Shown: positions 53,110 through 64,000 of the stretch, in pieces
Layout of the letters: every line of letters begins with the position of its first letter
Position numbering within the stretch: position 1 is the stretch's first letter
Assembly (NCBI RefSeq): GCF_038443385.1
Contig: NZ_CP151726.1
Location: 310,001 to 374,000 of the forward strand
Length of the DNA: 64,000 nt
From: Stieleria varia
GTDB lineage: Bacteria; Planctomycetota; Planctomycetia; Pirellulales; Pirellulaceae
Reading direction: 5' to 3'
Notes under the pieces: generated by a model
Seen by the model: the letters and a program-made list of their open reading frames with translations, nothing else
Database searches by the model: none
Told to the model about the DNA's origin: nothing
Made by a program: the position numbers and the translations under genes

Positions 53110-56100
53110 ATGAAACGTCTTTTTGTCCCCTTTCTGATCCTGGCAACTCTGTTGGTCGTCTATCGAACCCATACCGCGGCGGAACCACAGCAACCTCAGG
53201 AACAGCAATCTCAGGAACAGTGGACGCGGGTGAAAGACGCGATGAACCAAGGGCTGCCGAAAACGGCGATCGAGGAACTTGCACCGATCATCGAGCGTTC
53301 CAAAGCAGAATCAAAATTCGACGAGTGGATCCACGCCGTGACGCTTCAGATCACCCTGGAGTCGAACATCGAAGGCAACCAACCGGTCGAAAGGATCACG
53401 CGTTTGGAAAAGGCGATTGAGACCGCTCCGCCGGAAACCAAGGCCGTGATGAACACTCTGTTGGCCAATTGGTACTGGAATCACTTTCGACAAAACCGCT
53501 GGCGTTATCAACAACGAACCCAATCCAGTGGCGGCGGCAGTGATGACATCGAGACCTGGGACTTGCCCCGCATCTTGGCCAAAGTCGACGAAGTGTTCAC
53601 GACGGCACTGAGTGATAAAGCAGCACTGCAGCAGATCCCGATCGAACGTTTCGGCGAAGTCTTTGTCCCCGGCAACGTCAGCGACGCGTATCGGCCGACG
53701 CTGTTCGACGTGCTCGCTCACGACGCGTTGGAGTTCTACACAGCGGGAGAACAGGGGGGATCGAAATCACAGGATTACTTTGAGCCCGCCGCGGAAAGTC
53801 CGATCTTTTCCGACACCGCCGACTTCATCGCCTGGGAGCCCGAAACGACCGACGCGGACTCACCCACGCTGCGAGCGATTCGGCTGTATCAAGACCTGTT
53901 GCGATTTCATGAGTCCGATGAAGACGTCACAGCGTTTGCCGACAACGATCTTTCTCGCATCGTGCTGGCCAGCGCCAAAGCGGTCGGCGCTGAAAAACAA
54001 GATCGCTACCTCGCGTCGCTGCGTCGTTTGATCGAGCGATACGACGATCATCCCGTTTCAGCGCTCGCCCGACACTACCTAGCACAACAACATCACAACA
54101 ATGAAGACTTCGTCCTGGCACACGAGATCGCTTCGGTCGCGGTCGAGCGTTTCGCCGACAGCGTGGGCGGTCGTCGCTGCCACAATCTGATCCAACAGAT
54201 CGAAGCCAAGCAACTCGAAGTACGAACCGAACGCGTTTGGAACGGCGACCAGCCGGAGCTCCTGGTCGACTATCGCAACATCACCGAAGTCCACTTCAGA
54301 ATCGTGAGGTTTGATTTTGAAACTCACATTCAAAGCTCACAACGCGAGCCCCATTATGTCTACAACAATGAGTTACAGGAGTTATTGGCCCGCCCATTTC
54401 TCAAATCCTGGTCCGTCGAATTGCCTGCGACGGAGGACTACAAGGCACGAATCGAAACGCTGGAACCGCCCGCCGGGTTGCCGCCGGGATCGTACTTGTT
54501 GATCGCAAGCGGCAAGCAGGACTTTTCGCTGGACGAGAACCAGATCTCAGTGGTCGAGATCTGGGTCAGCGATTTGGCACTGGTCGTACGAACTTCATTC
54601 AACAGCACCGTGGTCAACGGATTTGTTTTGGATGCTCAGTCCGGTGAACCCATCCGGGGTGCTACGGTCGACGCATGGATTCGTCAGCGTGACGGACGTA
54701 GCACGCGGAGCATGTCGGTGCGAACCGATCAAAGCGGATTCTATGAGTTTCAACCGACCCCTCGTCAGCAACTGACGATCCATGCACGGCACCGCAATCA
54801 ATCGCTGTCGTCGGACAACGTGATTTCGGTGCGGGCGCGGCGTGACCAAGAAGAGCTCGTTCGCGCGACGAAATTCTTTACCGATCGCTCCATTTACCGC
54901 CCCGGTCAAACCATTCAGTACAAGGGCATCTGCCATTCGTACAACCAAGCCGACGGCGATTACAAGACATCGCCCAACATGCCGGTTACGGTTGCCCTGT
55001 TCGATGCCAACAACCAGGAAATCCATCGGCAAGAACATCGCTGCAATGCGTACGGCAGCTTCAGCGGCAGCTTCACCGCCCCGGCAGATCAACTCACCGG
55101 TCGCATGTCCATACGCGTCGTCAACGGTCCCAATGGACAAGCTCAGGTTTCCGTCGAACAGTACAAGCGGCCCCAGTTCAAGACAGAACTGGATGCACCG
55201 GAGGTCGCTGCAAAACTAAACGAACCTGTCGAGCTGACCGGACACGCCACCGCGTACAGCGGCGCACCGATGAACGGTGCGACCGTTTCCTATCGCGTGG
55301 TTCGCGAAGTTCGCTATCCCGGTTGGTGGTATTGGCGTTGCTGGTGGGCTCCACCGCTGGCCAACAGCCAAGAGATCTCGCACGGAACGACGGAAGTAGG
55401 CGATGACGGAACGTACAAGATCTCTTTCGTCGCCAAACCCGACGCCTCTGTCCCTTTGGAGAGCGAGCCCACATTCCGATACACGGTGTTTGCCGATGTG
55501 ACCGATACCACGGGCGAGACGCGATCGGATTCCAAGACCGTTCAAGTCGGCTACACGGCATTGGCGGCGACGCTGTCGACAGACTCATGGCTGGTCAGCG
55601 ATTCCGGCGTTCCGCTTCGCATCGCCACGAAAACACTGGACGGAGTCGGCCAAGCCGCCAGTGGTGAAATCAAAATCCATGTGGTCCAGCAACCCGAAGA
55701 AGTGATTCCGCCGCGATTGTTAGCGAGCAATCAGTACTACCGTGGCAACACGGAACCGGAGAAGCCCGATCCGTCCGTGCCCTCCTCGTGGGAACTCGGT
55801 GAACTGGTCGAAGAACTGTCGTTCGAAACCGACGCCGGTGGCAACGCCGAGTTGAAAACCAAGCCACTCGCCCCGGGAATCTACCGAGCGTTGCTGTCCA
55901 CCGAAGACCGATTTGGAAAGTCGGTTTCCGCCGTCGTTCAGTTCCACGTCTTCGATCCTGATGCGAAACAATTTTCAGCCAAGCTGCCCAGTAAGTTCTT
56001 GGTCAAAGACACGACGGTCCAACCGGGCGACACCTTGGTCGCGATCTGGGGCAGTGGGTACACCAAAGCCCGTGCGTACATCGAGATCGAACATGAAGGC

Positions 56101-59100
56101 AGGATCATGCGAGGATTCTGGACCACGCCTGGCCAGACCCAGATGAAACTGGAGCAGCCGGTGACCGAAGACATGCGTGGCGGCTTTACTGTTCGGATGA
56201 CGATGGTGCACGACAATCGTATTCACGAACACTCTCAACGCATTCCCGTGGAATGGAACAACAAGAAGCTGTCCGTCAGTTGGGAACACATGGTTTCCAA
56301 ACTCGAACCGGGCAGCAAGGAGACTTGGACAGCGACCGTCACCGGCCCCGATGCAGAGAATCGATTCGCCGAGATGGTCGCCACCCTCTACGACGCGTCT
56401 CTGGATGCGTATCAGTCTCACACATGGTCCAGTACTTTCGGTGTGTTTTACCAAGACCATACGCGGATACGTTTGATGTTCGCCAATTCGTCAAAGAATT
56501 TCCATCGTGTGCATCAAACTTGGGGACAGCAGTATCTGGATCCCGCGCTCACCTATCGGCATTTCCTGCCGGAACTGACGTACAACTATCACGGGTTCCA
56601 AATGGCGCGCATGCGTCGGGGTGGATTCAGTACAGGCGCGCCCATGCCGATGGCGGCAGCCGAGGGGATGATGGATGGCGAAGCTGCCTCAGCGCCAATG
56701 GATGGTGTGGCGTTGTACTCCTCCGTCGCCCCGATGGCCAAAGCGACGGCCGAACAAGCATCGGGCCAGCAAGACGCCTCCCAGCCGGACTTGAACCAAG
56801 TCGCTCTGCGAAAGAACCTCAATGAGACCGCGTTCTTCTTTCCCCACTTGCTCTCCGACAAGGATGGCCAGGTGAAGCTCGAGTTCGAGATGCCCGAAGC
56901 GTTGACGGAGTGGAAATTCATGGGCTTTGCCCACGACAACGACCTGAGTGCCGGCCTACTGACCGGTTCGACCGTGACGCAAAAAGACATCATGGTCCAA
57001 CCAAACCCACCTCGATTCTTGCGAGACGGAGATCAGTTGGAATTCACGGTCAAGGTCAGCAACCTTTCGCCGACCCGTCAGACCGGCACGGTCCGCTTGA
57101 GTTTTCTCGATGCCCGCACCGAAGAGAGCATCGACGACCAAATCGCGAATCGTGACAGTGATCAAGACTTTGCGATCCCGGCTGGTTCCTCCGAAACATT
57201 TTCTTGGAAAATCAGCATCCCCGACGGCACGCCTTGGTTGATCTATCGCGCCGTCGCTTCGACTGGAAAACTCTCCGACGGACAACAAGACTTCCTGCCG
57301 GTCCTTTCCCGCCGTGTCTTGGTCACCGAATCGATGCAATTGCCGATTCGTGGCCAACAGACCAAGCAATTCGAGTTTGACAAACTACGAGACTCGGGGA
57401 ACTCGGATTCGCTGACGCACCAATCCTTGACCGTGCAGATGGCGTCCAATCCATCATGGTACGCCGTGATGGCGCTGCCCTACTTGATGGAATACCCCTA
57501 CGAGTGCAACGAACAAACATTCAATCGGATGTACGCCAACTCGCTGGCACAACACATCGCCGGTAGCGATGCACGGATAGAAAACGTGTTCGCCCAGTGG
57601 CGAGGGACGAAAGCACTGGACAGCCCACTGGAAAAGAACGCGGAGCTGAAGTCTGTCATGCTGCAGGAAACGCCTTGGCTGAGTGACGGCAAAGACGAAT
57701 CAGCCGCGCGACGCAACGTGGGGATATTGTTCGAAAAGAACCGCTTGGCTTCCGAGCTGAAATCGCAACTCAAGAAACTGACCGAAAACCAGTTGCCCGG
57801 CGGCGGATGGTCGTGGTTCCCCGGTGGTCGTGAAAACGAGTTCATCACCTTGTACATCACGACGGGATTCGGGCGTCTGAGGCACTTGGGTACCGACGTC
57901 GATGTCTCCGCAGCGGTCAAGGCTCTGGCATTCCTGGATGCGGAGATGACCGAGCGATACACTCGCATTGACGAGGGCAACCGAAAGGACAACCAGCTCA
58001 GTCCCCACGTCGCGTTCTATCTCTACGGTCGCACGTTCTTTCTGAAAGATCACCCCATCGACGACAGCAATCGCGTGGCGTTCGACTATTGGAAATCACA
58101 AGCTCAGAAATACTGGTTGGATCTGAACAACCGCCAATCGCAAGCCCACATCGCAGTTGCCCTCAAGCGACTGGGCGATGCACCCACGGCCAACGCCATC
58201 ATGCGATCGATCGATGAGCGTAGCGTGTCCGATGAAGAAATGGGCATGTACTGGCGAGACACCGAGCGTTCTTGGTGGTGGTACCGAGCACCGATCGAAA
58301 CACAAGCGATGATGATCGAGGCCTTCGATGAAGTCGCCGATGATGCGGAGTCGGTCGAGGCGTGCAAGGTTTGGTTGCTGAAACAAAAGCAAACGCGAGA
58401 CTGGAAGACCACCAAGGCAACCGCCGACGCCGTCTACGCGCTGCTGTTGCGGGGAACTGATCTGCTGAGAAGCACAGAATTGGTCATGGTCGAACTAGCC
58501 GGCGAGGCGGTTCAGCCTGAATCGGTGGAGGCAGGAACCGGCTACTACGAACAGAAATTTTTGGCCGGCGACATCAGCGCAGAGCAGAGCCAAGTCACCG
58601 TGATCAAGAAAGACCCCGGCGTGGCCTGGGGCAGCGTCCACTGGCAGTATTTGGAAAACATCGACAAGGTGACCACGCACTCCGATGGACCGCTGAGTTT
58701 GACGAAAGAGTATTCGATCAAGCGAAACACAGCGGACGGCCCCAAGTTGATTCCGATCACGGAAAATGAATCACCACAGGTGGGCGACGAACTGGTCGCC
58801 CGGATCGTCGTGAAGACGGATCGCGACATGGAGTACGTTCACTTGAGGGATCAACGTGGCAGTGGAACCGAGCCGGTCAATGTGCTTTCCGGGTACCGAT
58901 TCCAAGACGGGCTAGCGTACTACGAGTCCACTCAAGACACCGCCTCGCATTACTTCATCGATTACCTACCCAAAGGCACCTATGTCTTCGAGTACAGCGT
59001 GCGAGTGCAACATCGCGGGCAGTATCAAACCGGTCTGGCCAGCATCCAATGCATGTATGCCCCCGAGTTCAACAGCCACAGCGAAAGTGTCGAGCTGCGG

Positions 59101-59109
59101 GTACGGTGA
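53110..59109 (+). CDS. Alpha-2-macroglobulin family protein with thioester motif
   Basis: 1999 aa, ATG at 53110, with a signal peptide (MKRLFVPFLILATLLVVYRTHTAAEP) but no lipobox. The first 330 residues look helical (TPR-like). MG2-type domains follow (RTSFNSTVVNGFVLDAQSGEPIRGATVDAW, FFTDRSIYRPGQTIQYKGIC). A Met/Ala/Gly-rich stretch (about 1168-1225) fits the bait region. The A2M middle domain is NETAFFFPHLLSDKDGQVKLEFEMPEALTEWKF. The thioester motif CNEQ lies at about 1466-1469 (YPYECNEQTFNRMY), then an alpha-toroid (LPGGGWSWFPGG). Such proteins trap proteases that enter the periplasm. The usual partner pbpC is not next to it. Confidence 0.92.
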   Translation: MKRLFVPFLILATLLVVYRTHTAAEPQQPQEQQSQEQWTRVKDAMNQGLPKTAIEELAPIIERSKAESKFDEWIHAVTLQITLESNIEGNQPVERITRLEKAIETAPPETKAVMNTLLANWYWNHFRQNRWRYQQRTQSSGGGSDDIETWDLPRILAKVDEVFTTALSDKAALQQIPIERFGEVFVPGNVSDAYRPTLFDVLAHDALEFYTAGEQGGSKSQDYFEPAAESPIFSDTADFIAWEPETTDADSPTLRAIRLYQDLLRFHESDEDVTAFADNDLSRIVLASAKAVGAEKQDRYLASLRRLIERYDDHPVSALARHYLAQQHHNNEDFVLAHEIASVAVERFADSVGGRRCHNLIQQIEAKQLEVRTERVWNGDQPELLVDYRNITEVHFRIVRFDFETHIQSSQREPHYVYNNELQELLARPFLKSWSVELPATEDYKARIETLEPPAGLPPGSYLLIASGKQDFSLDENQISVVEIWVSDLALVVRTSFNSTVVNGFVLDAQSGEPIRGATVDAWIRQRDGRSTRSMSVRTDQSGFYEFQPTPRQQLTIHARHRNQSLSSDNVISVRARRDQEELVRATKFFTDRSIYRPGQTIQYKGICHSYNQADGDYKTSPNMPVTVALFDANNQEIHRQEHRCNAYGSFSGSFTAPADQLTGRMSIRVVNGPNGQAQVSVEQYKRPQFKTELDAPEVAAKLNEPVELTGHATAYSGAPMNGATVSYRVVREVRYPGWWYWRCWWAPPLANSQEISHGTTEVGDDGTYKISFVAKPDASVPLESEPTFRYTVFADVTDTTGETRSDSKTVQVGYTALAATLSTDSWLVSDSGVPLRIATKTLDGVGQAASGEIKIHVVQQPEEVIPPRLLASNQYYRGNTEPEKPDPSVPSSWELGELVEELSFETDAGGNAELKTKPLAPGIYRALLSTEDRFGKSVSAVVQFHVFDPDAKQFSAKLPSKFLVKDTTVQPGDTLVAIWGSGYTKARAYIEIEHEGRIMRGFWTTPGQTQMKLEQPVTEDMRGGFTVRMTMVHDNRIHEHSQRIPVEWNNKKLSVSWEHMVSKLEPGSKETWTATVTGPDAENRFAEMVATLYDASLDAYQSHTWSSTFGVFYQDHTRIRLMFANSSKNFHRVHQTWGQQYLDPALTYRHFLPELTYNYHGFQMARMRRGGFSTGAPMPMAAAEGMMDGEAASAPMDGVALYSSVAPMAKATAEQASGQQDASQPDLNQVALRKNLNETAFFFPHLLSDKDGQVKLEFEMPEALTEWKFMGFAHDNDLSAGLLTGSTVTQKDIMVQPNPPRFLRDGDQLEFTVKVSNLSPTRQTGTVRLSFLDARTEESIDDQIANRDSDQDFAIPAGSSETFSWKISIPDGTPWLIYRAVASTGKLSDGQQDFLPVLSRRVLVTESMQLPIRGQQTKQFEFDKLRDSGNSDSLTHQSLTVQMASNPSWYAVMALPYLMEYPYECNEQTFNRMYANSLAQHIAGSDARIENVFAQWRGTKALDSPLEKNAELKSVMLQETPWLSDGKDESAARRNVGILFEKNRLASELKSQLKKLTENQLPGGGWSWFPGGRENEFITLYITTGFGRLRHLGTDVDVSAAVKALAFLDAEMTERYTRIDEGNRKDNQLSPHVAFYLYGRTFFLKDHPIDDSNRVAFDYWKSQAQKYWLDLNNRQSQAHIAVALKRLGDAPTANAIMRSIDERSVSDEEMGMYWRDTERSWWWYRAPIETQAMMIEAFDEVADDAESVEACKVWLLKQKQTRDWKTTKATADAVYALLLRGTDLLRSTELVMVELAGEAVQPESVEAGTGYYEQKFLAGDISAEQSQVTVIKKDPGVAWGSVHWQYLENIDKVTTHSDGPLSLTKEYSIKRNTADGPKLIPITENESPQVGDELVARIVVKTDRDMEYVHLRDQRGSGTEPVNVLSGYRFQDGLAYYESTQDTASHYFIDYLPKGTYVFEYSVRVQHRGQYQTGLASIQCMYAPEFNSHSESVELRVR

Positions 59110-59444: not shown

Positions 59445-59764
59445 GTTCGCGTCAGGCCGACTCAACCGGCGATGGTCGCTGCGCTATATCGCCGGCTACC
59501 GTCTGCGACCGCTTCACGGTCATATGCAGCAAAAATTCTATTCACGTTCTCCGAGACGCTCACCTCAGCGAGCGAAGCGAGCAGTCCCATGTGCCGCAGC
59601 CCAAACAACCAAGCACGACGCGCAAGCAAGTGAATCTAACGAATCACTCACGATCGCTTCGGACACGATCCGAGGGACACAGCACTTTGCTGCGTTGGTC
59701 AAACGTGTCGATTGATGTTGGCCATGGAGCATGAAAACTTCCTCTGCGCGTGACCGCTTCCAGG

Positions 59765-59851
59765 TGCGGAGGCAGCGACAGCATAAAGCGTGGGGCGTCA
59801 GCCTCACGTCCAACCGACAATCATCCCATCAAGCTGCGGAGGCAGCGACAG
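59765..59851. repeat. Direct repeat, two 17-bp copies
   Basis: TGCGGAGGCAGCGACAG occurs at 59765-59781 and 59835-59851, 70 bp apart. Confidence 0.8.
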
Positions 59852-59857
59852 ATACTG

Positions 59858-60262
59858 CTAATTTCGTAAGATGGGACTCCCCTCCAGGTCCGAGCCGAAG
59901 TCCTGCGATTGCTTCCCAGCATCTCCAGGCTCACCCTTTTGCTGGGACCGTTGAATTCTCCGCAGAGTCTCACACACTTCTTCCAAACGCGGGCACTCTT
60001 CCCATCGTTTCCGCCGGCGAAACTCCAGCAGCGCTTCTGCCACTTTCGTGCGTTTCCAAATGGGCATGCCGTCGGCTTTGACGCTAATCAGGTACGCAAC
60101 AACATGCTCGCCATCAAACTTCCACCGCTCGCGCTGGGCAATCTGGTGATGCCGTCGCAACTTCGCGTACCAGATTGCTGGCCAGTCCGGTTTTCCTGAA
60201 GCGAGAACGATATCAAGAGCCCTACCGTGCCCACTATCCCGCCTGCTCTCAAATCTTGTCAT
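59858..60262 (-). pseudogene. Truncated integron integrase-like ORF (N-terminal part only)
   Basis: 134 aa from the ATG at 60262; a GTG at 60295 is also in frame. The sequence DWPAIWYAKLRRHHQIAQRE...DGEHVVAYLISVKADGMPIWKRTKVAEALLEFRRRKR resembles, from memory, the N-terminal region of planctomycete integron-type tyrosine recombinases. The catalytic domain with the R-H-R-Y residues is absent; the frame stops at 59858 and nothing like it is seen further left. Position and strand fit an intI: divergent from the cassettes, 262 bp before the first cassette junction. It could instead be a whole small protein of unknown function. The integrase assignment is inferred. Confidence 0.5.
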
Positions 60263-60353
60263 TGCATGCCCCTCGAATCGGAAATCCAAATGCACAAAAT
60301 GTCAGTGCTGTCAGAATGCAAGCCCTGTCAAGCGGTGTCACCCCCACCCGAGA

Positions 60354-60382
60354 TTGTATTCAAAACTGCAACTGCCTAGAAT
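60354..60382 (+). promoter_or_regulatory. Candidate cassette promoter (Pc-like)
   Basis: TTGTAT, 17-base spacer, TAGAAT: the -10 box matches the sigma-70 consensus in 5 of 6 and the -35 in 4 of 6. It points towards the cassettes and lies about 140 bp before the first cassette junction, where a Pc promoter is expected. Confidence 0.4.
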
Positions 60383-60519
60383 GCTAGGCGTTCTTATTGG
60401 TCAGTTGCTGTGAAGCCTGAGCAAAACCAGTCAACAGCCAATAAGTCCGGGAGAAATCGAGGCGTAACCGCCCATAAAGCGTCAAATAACCAACCGCCAA
60501 GTCCTGACTCCCCCTAATT

Positions 60520-60532
60520 ACAAGTTCGTCGA
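60520..60532 (+). other. Candidate attI site, junction with the first cassette
   Basis: AAG|TTCGTCGAA: the presumed exchange point is after G60524. The eight bases GTTCGTCG are the exact reverse complement of the R'' box CGACGAAC (61102-61109) at the end of the first cassette, which marks this as the cassette's 5' boundary. The sequence to the left is then attI. Confidence 0.6.
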
Positions 60533-60560
60533 ATAGGGCATTTCGCAGAATCTCAGTTTC

Positions 60561-61100
60561 ATGCTTTCACGCCTCCGTCGATCAATTACGCTCATCCGCC
60601 AGCGGTTAACTAACTCGGTATTCCTGGAACGTGACGACGTCTCTCGCGCGTTCATGATCCGGAGTCTGGACCGACCTGAGCTCTCAGAGACGCTTCCATA
60701 TACGTGGAAGGGCGAGTCATTTTTCCGGTTCTGGAACGCGACGCTCGACTTGGAAGTGACAACATCACATGGAACGCTAAACGAAGCGCAGAACCAAGCA
60801 GTGTTGGCAGCTACGACGTGCGACGCCCCGATGATCAAGCAAGATTCTCTCGATCAAATTGCCGATTGGTTCAACGCAACCTATGCTAATCACGAAATCC
60901 TTGTGGATGACGAGATCCACAATGCCCCGCTTCGGACACATGATGACGTAGTCGCAAAGGTTTCACTGCCGCGTGTAGTCATTGATTTATCGGAGACAGC
61001 GGTGCCTGGTCGCTTTGAGCTGCATTTTCCATGGAGAACTCACAACTTTTACGACTTCACTGTGGATGTTAACTTATGGGCAGTCCAGGGTAAGACATGA
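60561..61100 (+). CDS. Cassette 1 protein, unknown
   Basis: 179 aa, ATG at 60561, 36 bp into the cassette (60525-61205), as is usual for cassette genes. It is soluble, with no signal peptide and no recognised domain; a beta-rich pattern (SETLPYTWKGESFFRFWNATLDLEVTTSHG, VVAKVSLPRVVIDLSETAVPGRFELHFPW) alternates with helices. Its stop at 61098-61100 lies directly before the attC site. Function unknown. Confidence 0.65.
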   Translation: MLSRLRRSITLIRQRLTNSVFLERDDVSRAFMIRSLDRPELSETLPYTWKGESFFRFWNATLDLEVTTSHGTLNEAQNQAVLAATTCDAPMIKQDSLDQIADWFNATYANHEILVDDEIHNAPLRTHDDVVAKVSLPRVVIDLSETAVPGRFELHFPWRTHNFYDFTVDVNLWAVQGKT

Positions 61101-61101
61101 C

Positions 61102-61210
61102 CGACGAACCATGTGGTGCAACGGAGGACGGGTGGTGCGTTTTTTTGTCTGCTTGCACGTCGTTTGCCCGTCCCCGCTGATCACCGCCGATCAACGCGGC
61201 TAGCGTTCGA
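61102..61210 (+). other. attC site of cassette 1 (diverged)
   Basis: The R'' box CGACGAAC is the reverse complement of the cassette's own start. The stem GGTGCAACGGAGGACGGG pairs imperfectly with CCCGTCCCCGCTGATCACC, with extrahelical bases. The 3' end GCG|TTCGAG gives the junction at 61205/61206. About 16 extra bases between the stem and the 3' core make it longer than the other attC sites here. Confidence 0.6.
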
Positions 61211-61270
61211 GTACAGTGTGGAGGCAGAGACGGAGCGGAGTTCTTGATGAACCCACGGTCGAGTTGACCG

Positions 61271-61319
61271 GGTACAATGGCAACGAGCGACGCTGGTTCC
61301 GGCCGTCGCTCCTTGTACC
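61271..61319. repeat. Nested hairpin in an ORF-less cassette
   Basis: Outer arms GGTACAA and TTGTACC, inner arms GAGCGACG and CGTCGCTC. It lies within the segment 61206-61406, which is bounded like a cassette but has no ORF. Confidence 0.7.
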
Positions 61320-61324
61320 GCGAT

Positions 61325-61410
61325 GATCCATGTCGATGCACCCAAGCCGCGGGTGTTGTCGTTACGCACCACAAGAGACCACCGCCGCGGCTGGGTGATC
61401 TCTGCGTTAC
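61325..61410 (+). other. attC site of the ORF-less cassette (R'' box degenerate)
   Basis: GATGCACCCAAGCCGCGG (61335-61352) pairs with CCGCGGCTGGGTGATC (61385-61400), with the extra G and A bulges typical of attC. The 3' core GCG|TTACG gives a junction at 61406/61407. The expected R'' box matching the start TTCGAG is not visible, so the site may be damaged. Confidence 0.6.
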
Positions 61411-61422
61411 GTGACGAAAACG

Positions 61423-62247
61423 ATGGACGAAATCGACCGCCAGAATCAGCGTGAAGACAAGCTCTACGAGCAGCTACTAGCATCACCCGTGGTCGAGTTG
61501 GCGGGAGTTGTCAGCCCAAGCGGTGTCGGTGCGGGCAAGTCTCGCGGACAACAACTGTGGTCACTGTTGCTTTCGTTTGACGCTTGGCGGATCAACGGTG
61601 GACCGATTCGCACGGAATCGCTCACGATTCGCCGCCGCGTCACGGACGATGAACTTCGCGAATTCCAGTCAGCCATTGATGCCGAAACGGTTGTCCGAAT
61701 TCGTGCCCGCGTCGCAGAAGACAATGTCTTCGGCTTTGTGCAAGCCTATATTGAAGAGCATATAGGGCTCGCGGATGACCGCGAGCTTCAGGCACGATTG
61801 GACGAACTCCAAAAACCGAAGACCGTCGAGGACGACCAGTTTGGCACATTCACGTTTGATCGTCGTGTCTCATGGTACTCTGCACAAGTCGAGTGGGTGG
61901 GCGAAACGATTGATCTCACGCTCAACGCCGAAGAACCGGATGAGATCAAGTCATGTTTGAAGATCGCTCGCGACCTGTGGTCGCAGCAATCGTCATGGAA
62001 AACTCGCGTCGACGATTACGCCGTTCAAGAACTGTTGGCACTCAAGAACGATACGTGGCTTGGTGATGACGAAACCGAATTGTCACCAGAGGAATTCAAG
62101 AGCAAGATGACGTTGCAGTCGATCTCCATCTACCCAGATGACGACTTTGACTTCTGGCATGATGACGGCGATTTATTCTGGGGCCACTCGATACAGGTGT
62201 CTGGTAGTCTCGCTGGCGGTCCCACCTCCGCCGACATCCCCGGATAG
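61423..62247 (+). CDS. Cassette protein with DUF2262 domain
   Basis: 274 aa from the ATG at 61423; a GTG at 61411 is in frame, 4 bp after the cassette junction. The C-terminal half, from DDQFGTFTFDRRVSWYSAQVEWVGETIDLTL through QELLALKNDTWLGDDETELSPEEFKSKMTLQSI to FWHDDGDLFWGHSIQVSGSL, matches the DUF2262 family as I recall it. The N-terminal 125 residues are unrecognised. Function unknown; DUF2262 proteins often lie in mobile or toxin-immunity settings. Its stop lies 1 bp before the TCACGTAAC box of the attC. Confidence 0.78.
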   Translation: MDEIDRQNQREDKLYEQLLASPVVELAGVVSPSGVGAGKSRGQQLWSLLLSFDAWRINGGPIRTESLTIRRRVTDDELREFQSAIDAETVVRIRARVAEDNVFGFVQAYIEEHIGLADDRELQARLDELQKPKTVEDDQFGTFTFDRRVSWYSAQVEWVGETIDLTLNAEEPDEIKSCLKIARDLWSQQSSWKTRVDDYAVQELLALKNDTWLGDDETELSPEEFKSKMTLQSISIYPDDDFDFWHDDGDLFWGHSIQVSGSLAGGPTSADIPG

Positions 62248-62340
62248 TCACGTAACAACACAATGCACCCGAGCGGGCGAACTAGGTGTTTTTGAAATGG
62301 ACAGTCAACCGCGCCCGCCGGGTGATTGTGAGCGTTATGT
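62248..62340 (+). other. attC site of the DUF2262 cassette
   Basis: The R'' box CACGTAAC (preceded by GT) is, over ten bases, the reverse complement of this cassette's start GTTACGTGAC (61406-61415). CACAATGCACCCGAGCGGGC (62259-62278) pairs with CGCCCGCCGGGTGATTGTG (62312-62330), leaving single extrahelical G and A on one arm, the attC hallmark. The 3' core is GCG|TTATG. Confidence 0.9.
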
Positions 62341-62366
62341 CGCTAACTTCGCCGCAGGCCGATGCG

Positions 62367-62873
62367 ATGACTGACACTGACTACTCTGCGGTGATTGACG
62401 AATTCGATCGGCATGTCCGCAACTATTTCGCCTACCTCGAAACCGAATACGGCTTTGCTGCATCGCCGACCCGAACTCGCGACATACACGAACCTCGCGA
62501 CGCTGGTGTGTCCATACGCTACAAGACCGATGCCGTCGGCATTACGATCGGATTGTCTTTGATTGGTGCCGGGATCGCTGTCACGTTCAAGAATCTGAAT
62601 TGGATCGACATCCCGAAGAACAAACGTGTGAAATACGTGTCACTTGATTCTGTGATCGCGTATCGAACGACCGGAACTGCCAAGTCCCTACTGCATGAAT
62701 TGACCTCAGCACGTCGCAAATACTGGCCGGATGGATTCCTGATCAACAACATGGAATTGGCTATTCAATCACTCGCATCTCAACTAAAACAACACGCAGC
62801 CGATATTATCAGCGGGGATTTGTCATCCTTGCCGGACATCGCTGCTCTTGATCGCGGACAAATCGCAACATAA
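62367..62873 (+). CDS. Cassette protein, unknown
   Basis: 168 aa from the ATG at 62367, which has AGG about 11 bases upstream; an ATG at 62337 lies within the attC core and is less likely. A central apolar segment (AVGITIGLSLIGAGIAVTF) could be a membrane helix or a buried strand. It is otherwise soluble, with no recognised domain. Its stop (62871-62873) lies within the R'' box of its attC, as often seen in integron cassettes. Confidence 0.65.
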   Translation: MTDTDYSAVIDEFDRHVRNYFAYLETEYGFAASPTRTRDIHEPRDAGVSIRYKTDAVGITIGLSLIGAGIAVTFKNLNWIDIPKNKRVKYVSLDSVIAYRTTGTAKSLLHELTSARRKYWPDGFLINNMELAIQSLASQLKQHAADIISGDLSSLPDIAALDRGQIAT

Positions 62874-62961
62874 CCAACGGGTGAACGCGAGCCGGAATCG
62901 GCCGGGTGGCTCGCTTCGCTCGGCAACGTTTACTCCCGGCCGCGTTACCCAAAACGTTCGT
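62868..62961 (+). other. attC site of the cassette at 62335-62955
   Basis: The R'' box ACATAAC is the reverse complement of the cassette start GTTATGT. GGGTGAACGCGAGCCGG (62879-62895) pairs with CCCGGCCGCGTTACCC (62935-62950), with extrahelical G and A. The 3' core is ACG|TTCGTGG. Confidence 0.88.
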
Positions 62962-62973
62962 GGATCAAAGACC

Positions 62974-63360
62974 TTGGCACCGCTCGAATTACCGTTTGAC
63001 CCCAAGTCTTTCCCTTGGCCACGTGATTGGCAAGCGATTCCACCAGGCTTCGAAGAGGCTTCCGCCGATGCCTTAGGGCACATGGAAACATTTGGAACCT
63101 ATGAGGTCCCAGCGATCAATTTCGTTTCGGAACTTCGACGAGAGATATGTGCGGATCACCCATTATTCCACCGATGCTTTATTGCGATTGCATGTATTAC
63201 GATTGACCCTGACGATGTTCTGTTCTTCACGGACGATCCAAACGAACCATTCGCGTTCGTTCACCTAACGTGGCACATTGAACGAACCGCAAACTTTCCC
63301 TGGTGCCGCACGTTCGCGACAATTGACTCATTCCTTGAACATTGCTCTGATGGGAGCTGA
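62974..63360 (+). CDS. Cassette protein, unknown
   Basis: 128 aa from a TTG at 62974, the first in-frame start after the cassette junction; the frame is open to 62848, but that would run through the attC of the previous cassette. Soluble, rich in aromatics (FDPKSFPWPRDWQAIPPGF, FVHLTWHIERTANFPWCRTFATIDSFLEHC). No domain recognised. The true start is uncertain; an ATG at 63082 would shorten it. Confidence 0.5.
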   Translation: MAPLELPFDPKSFPWPRDWQAIPPGFEEASADALGHMETFGTYEVPAINFVSELRREICADHPLFHRCFIAIACITIDPDDVLFFTDDPNEPFAFVHLTWHIERTANFPWCRTFATIDSFLEHCSDGS

Positions 63361-63377
63361 GACGTTCGCCAACAGAT

Positions 63378-63467
63378 CCACGAACAATCCGATGAACCCA
63401 AGCGGCGGATCGGGCGTTTCCTGACTACAACATTTTTCGCCGCCGCTGGGTTATCGGTAGCGTTCGT
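63378..63467 (+). other. attC site of the cassette at 62956-63462
   Basis: The R'' box CCACGAAC is the exact reverse complement of this cassette's start GTTCGTGG (62955-62962). CCGATGAACCCAAGCGGCGG (63389-63408) pairs with CCGCCGCTGGGTTATCGG (63440-63457), with extrahelical G and A. The 3' core is GCG|TTCG. Confidence 0.9.
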
Positions 63468-63495
63468 CGCATCGACATTTTGGCACGAAAATACA

Positions 63496-64000
63496 ATGAA
63501 CAAGACATTTGATCGCCGCAAGTTGCTTGCAACCGGTTCCGCCTTAGGGCTTGTAGGCCTCGCGCCGCGATCCAGCGCCGAAGACGGATCCTCGTCTTCA
63601 AAGCCAATGGTTTCCCTTCGTGGTCGGATTGAGGCCGAACCGAATTGGTTGATGCCGATTCACTTTGGCCCAATCGAATGGGGTGGCGATCAGCAAGTTG
63701 GTGCACCACAGTACGAGGTAACAGCGATTTCGCTGAAGTACGTCACCGACGAAGAGCAGCTAACCAAGTACCTTCCAGTAGGATTTGAGCTCGATGGACC
63801 ACCGCTGCTAAACATCACCTATTCGCAGAACACCGAGATCAGCTGGCTTGCCGGCGGACAATATAACATTGTGGCAGTCACTGCACATGTCAGGTTCAAT
63901 GGTGAACAAGACGTGCTGACCGGTGAATACGCCCTTGTCTTGTGGGAAAACCTTGCTGAACCCATCTTGGCTGGAAGAGAAGCACTCGGGATTCCAAAGA
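63496..64000 (+). CDS. Acetoacetate decarboxylase-like protein with Tat signal (cassette gene, cut by window edge)
   Basis: 168 residues visible from the ATG at 63496, 33 bp into the last cassette. The N-terminus DRRKLLATGSALGLVGLAP is a twin-arginine-type signal (RRKLL rather than RRxFL), so export in folded form is likely. From about residue 40 the sequence follows the acetoacetate decarboxylase fold: KYVTDEEQLTKYLPVGFELDGPP, YNIVAVTAHVRFNGEQDVLTGEYALVLWENLAEPILAGREALGIPK, where GREALGIPK matches the family's REExGxPK block. The catalytic Lys region lies at or past the edge. Substrate unknown. Confidence 0.75.
   Translation, partial: MNKTFDRRKLLATGSALGLVGLAPRSSAEDGSSSSKPMVSLRGRIEAEPNWLMPIHFGPIEWGGDQQVGAPQYEVTAISLKYVTDEEQLTKYLPVGFELDGPPLLNITYSQNTEISWLAGGQYNIVAVTAHVRFNGEQDVLTGEYALVLWENLAEPILAGREALGIPK

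Follow-up and report, generated by a model that had tools for sequence, protein, structure and literature searches.

Integron array and cassette genes

The window (the whole 64-kb stretch of Stieleria varia DNA analysed) carries a truncated integrase gene on the minus strand near its right end, which faces away from an attI site and a row of small plus-strand ORFs arranged as an earlier note on this DNA had described. The features are as follows.

59667..59880, no strand assigned: 3' flank of the type-A platform and left end shared by the platform units (GATCCGAGGGACACAGC...)
59858..60262, minus: truncated intI, 134-aa N-terminal extension alone
59880..59881, no strand assigned: deletion junction; ~2 kb is missing, and with it the SAM-like and catalytic domains of the integrase
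60465..60524, plus: attI core, crossover G60524^T60525
60525..61189, plus: cassette 1; ORF 60561-61100, 179 aa, no known domain
61103-61195, plus: attC of cassette 1, 57.3 bits with model R1
61190..61406, plus: gene-less cassette from a 218-bp family whose core is G^AT, 21 full copies aligned
61322..61412 (limits by eye), plus: attC belonging to this gene-less cassette, with GATGATC as R''; partial R1 match at 61335-61400, 31.0 bits
61423..62247, plus: ORF of cassette 3, DUF7021 and DUF2262 (Pfam E 2.3e-24 and 1.2e-42)
62250-62340, plus: attC of cassette 3, R1 81.8 bits, E 5.5e-20
62367..62873, plus: ORF of cassette 4, no Pfam match above cut-off (tested as 62364-62873)
62868-62961 (model limits), plus: attC of cassette 4, R1 35.6 bits; R' GTTCGTG from 62956 by eye
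62971..63360, plus: ORF of cassette 5, start uncertain, no Pfam match (tested as 62965-63360)
63379-63468, plus: attC of cassette 5, R1 69.9 bits
63496..64000, plus: ORF of cassette 6, 309 aa, crossing the window edge, acetoacetate decarboxylase family

The attC sites were searched with a home-built covariance model, R1, which is distinct from that of IntegronFinder and was trained on sites of the same genome that all lie outside the window locus. With R1, five attC (one of them a partial match; E 7e-6 to 6e-20) are found at 61.1-63.5 kb of the window and 13 more beyond its right edge, all on the plus strand. The array thus comprises 18 attC in one orientation over ~15 kb, where two or more with R'', L'', L' and R' boxes define an integron array or CALIN, and ends at G000:385468, 11.5 kb past the window edge. 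Neither the rest of the window nor the 20 kb preceding it (L028) contains an additional R1 match at E up to 1. A 20-kb control stretch (L015) gives a single match at E 0.4, and none is found at E 0.01 in a further 190 kb of control DNA, made up of the metG regions from ten relatives. A home-built architecture filter retains two window sites (scores 32.5 and 28.8), compared with six hits in ten dinucleotide shuffles of the window (top score 28.0). An Rfam search at gathering level returned no match.

The attC-form palindromes claimed in the earlier note, for which it had proposed a covariance model search, are therefore confirmed. One detail is corrected: the site at ~61.32-61.41 kb is part of a cassette whose R boxes have GAT/ATC in place of GTT/AAC. 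R' of the cassette 1 attC reads GATCAAC, because the following cassette begins with AT.

Cassette 1 recurs in another genome of the genus (contig C193 of G296) with 90.9% identity and the same ends at the cores, and the 21 full copies of the 218-bp gene-less cassette have different neighbours. Judged from these alignments, both cassettes are mobile as exact units. Reading the palindromes as ordinary repeats or terminators in intergenic DNA, and the genes as fixed chromosomal genes, is highly improbable: the architecture matches that of intI-adjacent sites, cassettes are exchanged at the exact core, cassette 1 is mobile as an exact unit, and no attC lies beside metG in the ten relatives. No support for that explanation was found, the four terminator sites at 59.8-64 kb being a chance number (mean of 4.6 in shuffles). 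In 14 other genomes, nothing matches the left neighbour at E 1e-100. The comparison with relatives suggested earlier thus shows a gene order that is not fixed in those examined (metG regions in ten, left neighbour in 14).

The sequence TACAAT is conserved in 19 of the 21 copies of the 218-bp cassette. A sigma-70 scan at TACAAT found no site, and the promoter and terminator scan of 59.8-64 kb found nothing above chance, so the idea of a promoter in this cassette has the conserved TACAAT as its sole basis. The in-window part of the cassette 6 ORF (full ORF, L014:1496-2425) matches PF06314 with E 2.8e-21. None of ten cassette proteins of the array matches the anti-phage library PADLOC at E 0.01. 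A 422-bp gene-less cassette is absent from the window array, although the compared stretches of the six intact arrays contain 38 matches to it.

Integrase deletion and attI platform

The minus-strand ORF spans 59858-60295, with a probable start at ATG 60262 that gives 134 aa. Over 134 aligned residues, the fragment shares 74-75% identity with the N-termini of two full-length integron integrases of the genome (L006 and L007; E 4e-67 and 9e-68, blastp against eight proteins), so the label of integrase-like fragment given to it earlier is correct. It has no Pfam or PDB match, and in NCBIfam one chance-level match (E 0.26) and none that is significant. The stretch 59660-59880 aligns with L006:3666-3446 and 59881-60531 with L006:1468-810, with a short shared CTCC at the joint. 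The truncation is thus a ~2-kb deletion of the core domains, which leaves the N-terminal extension as the only part of a divergent integrase at the locus. The genome has 37 matches to TIGR02249, all of them outside the interval from 43.7 kb to 1292 kb.

The same junction is present at two other platforms, 1974k and 5126k. A single inherited deletion in these three was considered and rejected, since they do not group in a tree of the 290 bp adjacent to attI. Among six deleted intI copies examined, the frame is kept in three (window, 1974k and 5126k) and lost in three (176k, 2553k and 5745k), and dN/dS among five deleted copies is 0.40-0.68; a stand-alone role of the N-terminal fragment was rejected on these grounds.

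The attI adjoins the first cassette, and the same 60-bp core with crossover G^TT is found at 13 loci. The flank at 59667..59880 shares 92-93% identity with its counterparts at the two intact type-A platforms, and platform homology starts at this flank in 11 other copies too.

attI platforms on one chromosome

The chromosome holds 18 attI, 13 of type A and five of type B (16 of 16 candidates scored for each type). A full-length integrase adjoins only six of them (two type-A, four type-B), and the other 12 platforms lack one. All six integrases exceed the TIGR02249 cut-off, and the alignment of the type-A integrase to the solved IntI4 (2a3v, E 1.7e-66) takes in the HxxRH and Y motifs. A similarity search of other genomes' contigs, from which the own genome and very near genomes were perhaps left out, gave only four distant integrase matches with 27-30% identity.

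The 13 type-A attI all end in CAAG^TT and continue into 13 unrelated sequences, among which 13 stretches of 220 bp have no mutual blastn match at E 1e-3. Pairwise, the type-A sites are 89-97% identical over the final 60 bp of attI (20-bp bins); further upstream, identity is 80-84% at 60-130 bp and then 77-78% at 130-300 bp. At two integrase-less platforms the first cassette is identical or nearly so to a cassette of an intact array: 176k and the 5376k array agree at 100% over 420 bp, and 2553k and the 8365k array at 98.6% over 501 bp. In both cases the cassette ends are exact, at the core on both sides. The integrase-less pairs 2553k/5745k (96.0% over 1155 bp) and 7189k/1417k (95.5% over 290 bp) have different first cassettes.

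Shared deletions beside different cassettes would be no proof of capture in trans if a deleted copy had overwritten the integrase side of intact platforms by gene conversion. Homology among platforms is long, and 176k is a hybrid of a type-A flank and a type-B attI. Furthermore, the attI-proximal tree is at odds with the deletion class, both for window/1974k/5126k and for 2553k, which in this stretch shares 93.4% with its near-duplicate 5745k and more, 95.5-95.9%, with the intact copies. This mismatch makes recurrent deletion or gene conversion possible, so the shared joints alone cannot date the deletion before the captures. We nevertheless consider gene conversion rather unlikely as the explanation, as it must postdate a very recent capture, given the 98.6-100% cassettes at the attI of integrase-less platforms.

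Probable cassette loading at integrase-less platforms

Cassettes join and exit arrays through G^TT recombination at attI or attC, with IntI acting on folded single-stranded attC. The window locus is very probably a sedentary chromosomal integron without its own recombinase, a non-autonomous member of a multi-platform system, as suggested by the intact platforms of the same type and the fresh-looking cassettes at integrase-less siblings. An internal deletion removed the integrase core and left the N-terminal extension, attI and the array. The platform is unable to supply IntI itself, and the integrases of the six intact platforms probably serve the 12 integrase-less ones. For the first cassettes of 176k and 2553k, loading in trans seems the simplest explanation. 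By inference, the window platform would be loaded in the same way, its attI would still be in use and the intact integrases would be active.

Alternatively, the window array may be a dead relic, an ordinary CALIN whose cassettes were frozen after integrase loss and are decaying; this is a serious possibility, somewhat short of even. Consistent with it, no recent loading is seen at the window: no ORF cassette exceeds 95% identity over 200 bp to any cassette of the intact arrays, and the one cassette that does is the gene-less one of 218 bp (best match 96.4%). Two window attC are weak (31.0 and 35.6 bits), an IS91-like element in the array is reduced to two end pieces, and constraint on the integrase fragment is somewhat relaxed (dN/dS 0.40 against the 1974k copy, 0.31 against an intact copy). 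However, the last 50 bp of the window attI are 48/50 identical to an intact copy, with the remaining ~50-bp bins across the platform ranging from 39/56 and 37/50 up to 48/50, and sibling platforms without integrase carry fresh cassettes.

The identification of an integron with gene cassettes, attC and a truncated integrase in a planctomycete is upheld. The proposed assignment as CALIN-type is right by definition and incomplete: attI is recognisable, and the locus is one of 12 integrase-less platforms beside six intact integrons. In the sections of the IntegronFinder 2.0 paper covered here (PMC9024848), CALINs average almost six attC, are taken as degraded integrons and, in a large genome survey, number 2961 against 2760 complete integrons. 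The window array resembles them in its 18 attC and the lack of a nearby integrase, whereas it keeps attI and an intI remnant. In the part of Nemergut 2008 covered (PMC2426708), a survey that included Planctomycetes found about one third of intI genes to be pseudogenes, some inactivated by intragenomic duplication, and more than one intI in 20% of carriers. The integrase is likewise inactivated here, although by a large internal deletion with attI retained, and this at several platforms of one genome.

Sedentary chromosomal integrons, such as the superintegrons of Vibrio, have intI divergent from attI and long attC arrays, with gene-less cassettes and many cassettes without assigned function, according to the part of Blanco 2024 covered (PMC11014356). 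The present system shares these features. Unlike Vibrio-type sedentary integrons, six intact and 12 integrase-less attI platforms share one chromosome, the integrases have a ~135-aa N-terminal extension, and the window platform lacks the catalytic domain. Ghaly 2021 (PMC8352920) provides a Planctomycetes-specific attC model, one among 11 taxa, and the part of that paper covered makes no mention of multi-platform genomes. Among titles and abstract beginnings in part of the literature, no description of multi-platform integrons in Stieleria or other planctomycetes was found. The element is thus of a known kind, an integron or CALIN, in an unusual multi-platform arrangement.

Among MITEs and similar non-autonomous transposons, copies with internal deletions are more numerous than autonomous elements and depend on proteins supplied in trans. 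The present platforms are similar by analogy only, in that integrase-less copies outnumber intact ones and proteins would act in trans; unlike MITEs, the platform is not known to be moved by IntI, and its left end has no recognisable att site. Tentatively, and with close to even chances, the platform (from its GATCCNNGGGACACAGC-proximal left end to attI) may amplify with autonomous and satellite members, the 12 ports being loaded in trans by two integrase lineages from a shared cassette pool. In that case, an array classed as CALIN could be a functioning port for cassettes instead of a fossil.

On this chromosome one attI exists as 13 natural replicas, each followed by a different first sequence, and GAT is a natural variant of the usually fixed GTT core. 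CALINs are usually read as degraded leftovers; here attI is kept at integrase-less platforms, and some of these carry fresh cassettes. The question of whether a CALIN is dead or still supplied in trans can thus be put to a direct test in this genus, which has members in culture.

attC sites and extent of the cassette array

The row of small plus-strand ORFs with palindromic spacers that the earlier note described at the right end of the window is present. Rfam gave zero matches at gathering level on this region. A filter for attC architecture (R'' ending AAC, short spacer, L'' with an extrahelical G, L', spacer, and R' beginning GTT) picked two window sites with scores of 32.5 and 28.8, and gave six matches, top score 28.0, in ten dinucleotide shuffles of the window. 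Many further filter sites lie elsewhere in the S. varia genome (G000), adjoining integrase genes. This genome is one contig of 9,719,866 bases, and the window covers its positions 310001-374000. A covariance model (R1) was built from 19 sites, all from outside the window locus, thinned from 33 filter sites with scores of at least 28 by keeping equal-length sites only if less than 90% identical. In the R1 alignment 95.2% of cells are paired, a figure inflated because the training sites were selected partly for pairing, and 118 cells are changed on both sides; the shuffles gave 66.5% and 39.0. Within the window, R1 matches at five places:

61103-61195, plus strand, attC site
61335-61400, plus strand, attC site (partial match)
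62250-62340, plus strand, attC site
62868-62961, plus strand, attC site
63379-63468, plus strand, attC site

The 11.5 kb to the right of the window hold 13 additional R1 sites, all on the plus strand, the last ending at G000:385468. The array therefore comprises 18 attC over about 15 kb, and the attC sites first proposed from the palindromes are recovered by a covariance model, albeit our own. At E up to 1, R1 has zero further matches in the rest of the window and none in the 20 kb before it. The control stretch L015 gave a single match (E 0.4), and the metG regions of ten relatives (190 kb) gave zero at E 0.01.

The left neighbour of the locus (53110-59109) is a 1999-aa bacterial alpha-2-macroglobulin gene by Pfam; a search of 14 other genomes found no match to it at E 1e-100. 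The right neighbour, metG, is conserved in 28 of 30 genomes; its 3' flank in ten relatives (20 kb in nine of them and 10 kb in the tenth) contains neither attC nor the window's neighbours. Thus in the relatives examined the array is not a fixed gene order, the alternative that the earlier note had named.

The first cassette recurs as an exact unit in another genome of the genus (G296), with 90.9% identity. Pfam matches over the cut-off in the array are DUF7021 with DUF2262, an acetoacetate-decarboxylase family protein, TPR repeats, a calcineurin-like phosphoesterase, DUF6386, WG repeats, a response regulator receiver and SUKH/SMI1-KNR4. The remaining cassette ORFs tested have no Pfam match over the cut-off, and none of 10 array cassette proteins matches in PADLOC.

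An IS91-family element, encoding an IS91 transposase and a XerC/integron-integrase-like tyrosine recombinase, sits at attC cores (L022:4253-7209 and four more copies). The window array contains end pieces of it, located at G000:385461-385657 and 378346-378604. The element has the R'-like sequence GTTGAAC at its left end, and GTTC or GTTT comes directly after it; GTTC is an IS91 target. An IS200-like (Y1) transposase (L014:14018-14704), with a below-cut-off NCBIfam match to the REP-associated type, lies directly past the array end.

The integrase remnant and the attI crossover

Searches of Pfam and PDB with the minus-strand ORF 59858-60295 gave no match, and its sole NCBIfam match has an E of 0.26. 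It is, as had been supposed, an integrase-like fragment, aligning at 74-75% identity with the N-terminus of two full-length integron integrases of G000 (134 aligned residues; E 4e-67 and 9e-68). The remnant corresponds to an N-terminal extension found in these integrases ahead of the standard domains. Specifically, in the type-A integrase, the type of the window, a SAM-like domain begins at residue 142 and the integron integrase profile TIGR02249 at residue 141. dN/dS between the window fragment and an intact copy is 0.27-0.28, or 0.31 on a slightly different codon set. The extension is about 135 aa long without a Pfam domain (L007:1081-1500 and L008:1093-1500, in two stretches of G000), and open frame lengths of 459-613 aa point to such an extension in most relatives of the genus.

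At the DNA level, the platform (3' flank, remnant and attI, 59660-60531) is collinear with intact type-A platforms apart from one deletion. Positions 59660-59880 match the 3' flank of the intact platforms (92-93%), 59881-60531 match their 5' part and attI (85%), and about 2 kb is absent in between. The integrase was thus cut short, as claimed earlier, by a single deletion. A dispersed repeat of about 90 bp lies at 59762-59851, with more than 20 other weak genome matches (41-94 bases, 73-88%).

A 70-base query from the window found 13 copies of its attI in G000 (16 of 16 candidates scored). Because all 13 end in CAAG^TT and 13 different sequences come next, with no blastn match at E 1e-3 among them (220 bp each), the window crossover is placed at G60524^T60525. 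Counting back from the crossover, the mean pairwise identity of these copies is 89.1, 97.1 and 91.0% in three successive 20-bp bins, then 80-84% between 60 and 130 bp and 77-78% between 130 and 300 bp. Type-B attI has 5 copies, giving 18 platforms; a full-length integrase adjoins 6 of these and is lacking at the other 12. Correctly oriented attC lie downstream of the type-A platforms; at 7912k (names give genome position in kb) only one was found, and it is weak (25.3 bits).

Integrons and gene-less cassettes across the genome and phylum

Six full-length integrases of G000 exceed the TIGR02249 cut-off. Four are type B, 98-99% identical over about 1.7-2.2 kb (integrase and attI). In one type-B pair the alignment extends into a first cassette of the 422-bp family described below (95.6% in all); the arrays and flanks of the four otherwise differ. 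The two type-A integrons are 98.2% identical over 2.85 kb. R1 has 327 matches at E 0.01, the weakest of which may be chance, in about 688 kb of G000, mostly stretches picked for holding matches, after removal of three duplicates and three other-genome matches. A direct genome scan gave at least 150 matches, all those scored, of 3749 first-look candidates.

All 14 genomes of the genus have attC matches (best 72 or fewer candidates scored per genome). An integrase over the cut-off occurs in 12 of the 14, one or two each and six in G000, and in 50 of 294 genomes of a phylum sample; draft assemblies may undercount. The maximum in the phylum sample after G000 is four, fragments counted (best 7 or fewer candidates scored per genome). 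In a sample of relatives, one family genome also has four integrases, one with a stop and one partial.

The component parts of this system are of known kinds. Nemergut et al. (PMC2426708) name Planctomycetes among intI carriers and report about one third of intI as pseudogenes, some via intragenomic duplication, and Ghaly et al. (PMC8352920) include a Planctomycetes attC model. The IntegronFinder 2.0 survey (PMC9024848) gives more than one integrase in 22% of integrase-bearing genomes and a maximum of four complete integrons.

The cassette at 61190-61406 has no gene and is a member of a 218-bp family. Matches to this family number 23 across the window array and the four type-B arrays; the compared stretches of the two type-A arrays contain none. 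Among 21 full copies aligned (61190-61406, 19 in the type-B arrays, and G000:384130-384347 in the window array), 20 begin AT where cassettes normally begin TT (core G^AT versus G^TT), and R'' shows a compensating change, ATC for AAC. TACAAT is conserved in 19 of the 21. In the best 166 of 192 distinct attC matches, R' is GTT in 133 and GAT in 24, and 19 of these 24 stand before a 218-bp family cassette. A second gene-less family measures about 422 bp, has a conserved TACAATCCA and is exemplified by the first cassette of the 6858k array; the compared stretches of the six intact arrays contain 38 matches to it over 300 bp, and the window array lacks it. Blanco et al. (PMC11014356) demonstrated promoter activity in gene-less cassettes.

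Probable cassette loading in trans at platforms without an integrase

The 12 integrase-less platforms carry deletions of a few kinds. In platforms 7187k, 7189k, 7912k and 1417k the joint is the same to within a few bases, and a tree of the 290 bp before attI places these four together (support 0.85); a second joint is common to 176k, 2553k and 5745k. The pairs 7189k/1417k (95.5% identical) and 2553k/5745k (96.0% over 1155 bp ending at attI) each have different first cassettes. The first cassette of 176k equals a cassette of the intact 5376k array (100% over 420 bp), and that of 2553k matches one in the far part of the 8365k array (98.6% over 501 bp); on both sides, these identities begin and end at the recombination core. 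The 176k platform (G000:176044-176782) is a hybrid: its flank and integrase remnant are type A, its attI is type B, and its cassettes match those of intact arrays at up to 100% identity. Among the other integrase-less arrays compared, 1974k, 5745k, 7187k, 1417k and 953k each have between one and three stretches in common with intact arrays at 95% identity or more, and 5126k, 7912k and 3534k have none.

Gene conversion among platforms may have occurred, since the deletion joint that the window shares with 1974k and 5126k is at odds with the tree and since, over the last 290 bp before attI, 2553k resembles the intact copies more closely than it does 5745k. For the window platform the case for loading in trans is weaker than for its siblings; no ORF cassette of its array is at least 95% identical to one in an intact array. 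In the literature searched, we found no description of a single chromosome with 18 attI platforms of which two thirds lack an integrase and some are freshly loaded. Overall, the integrase-less platforms look to have been loaded in trans, because a platform with no integrase of its own depends on one encoded elsewhere for precise exchange at attI; the six intact integrases of the genome are the obvious source.
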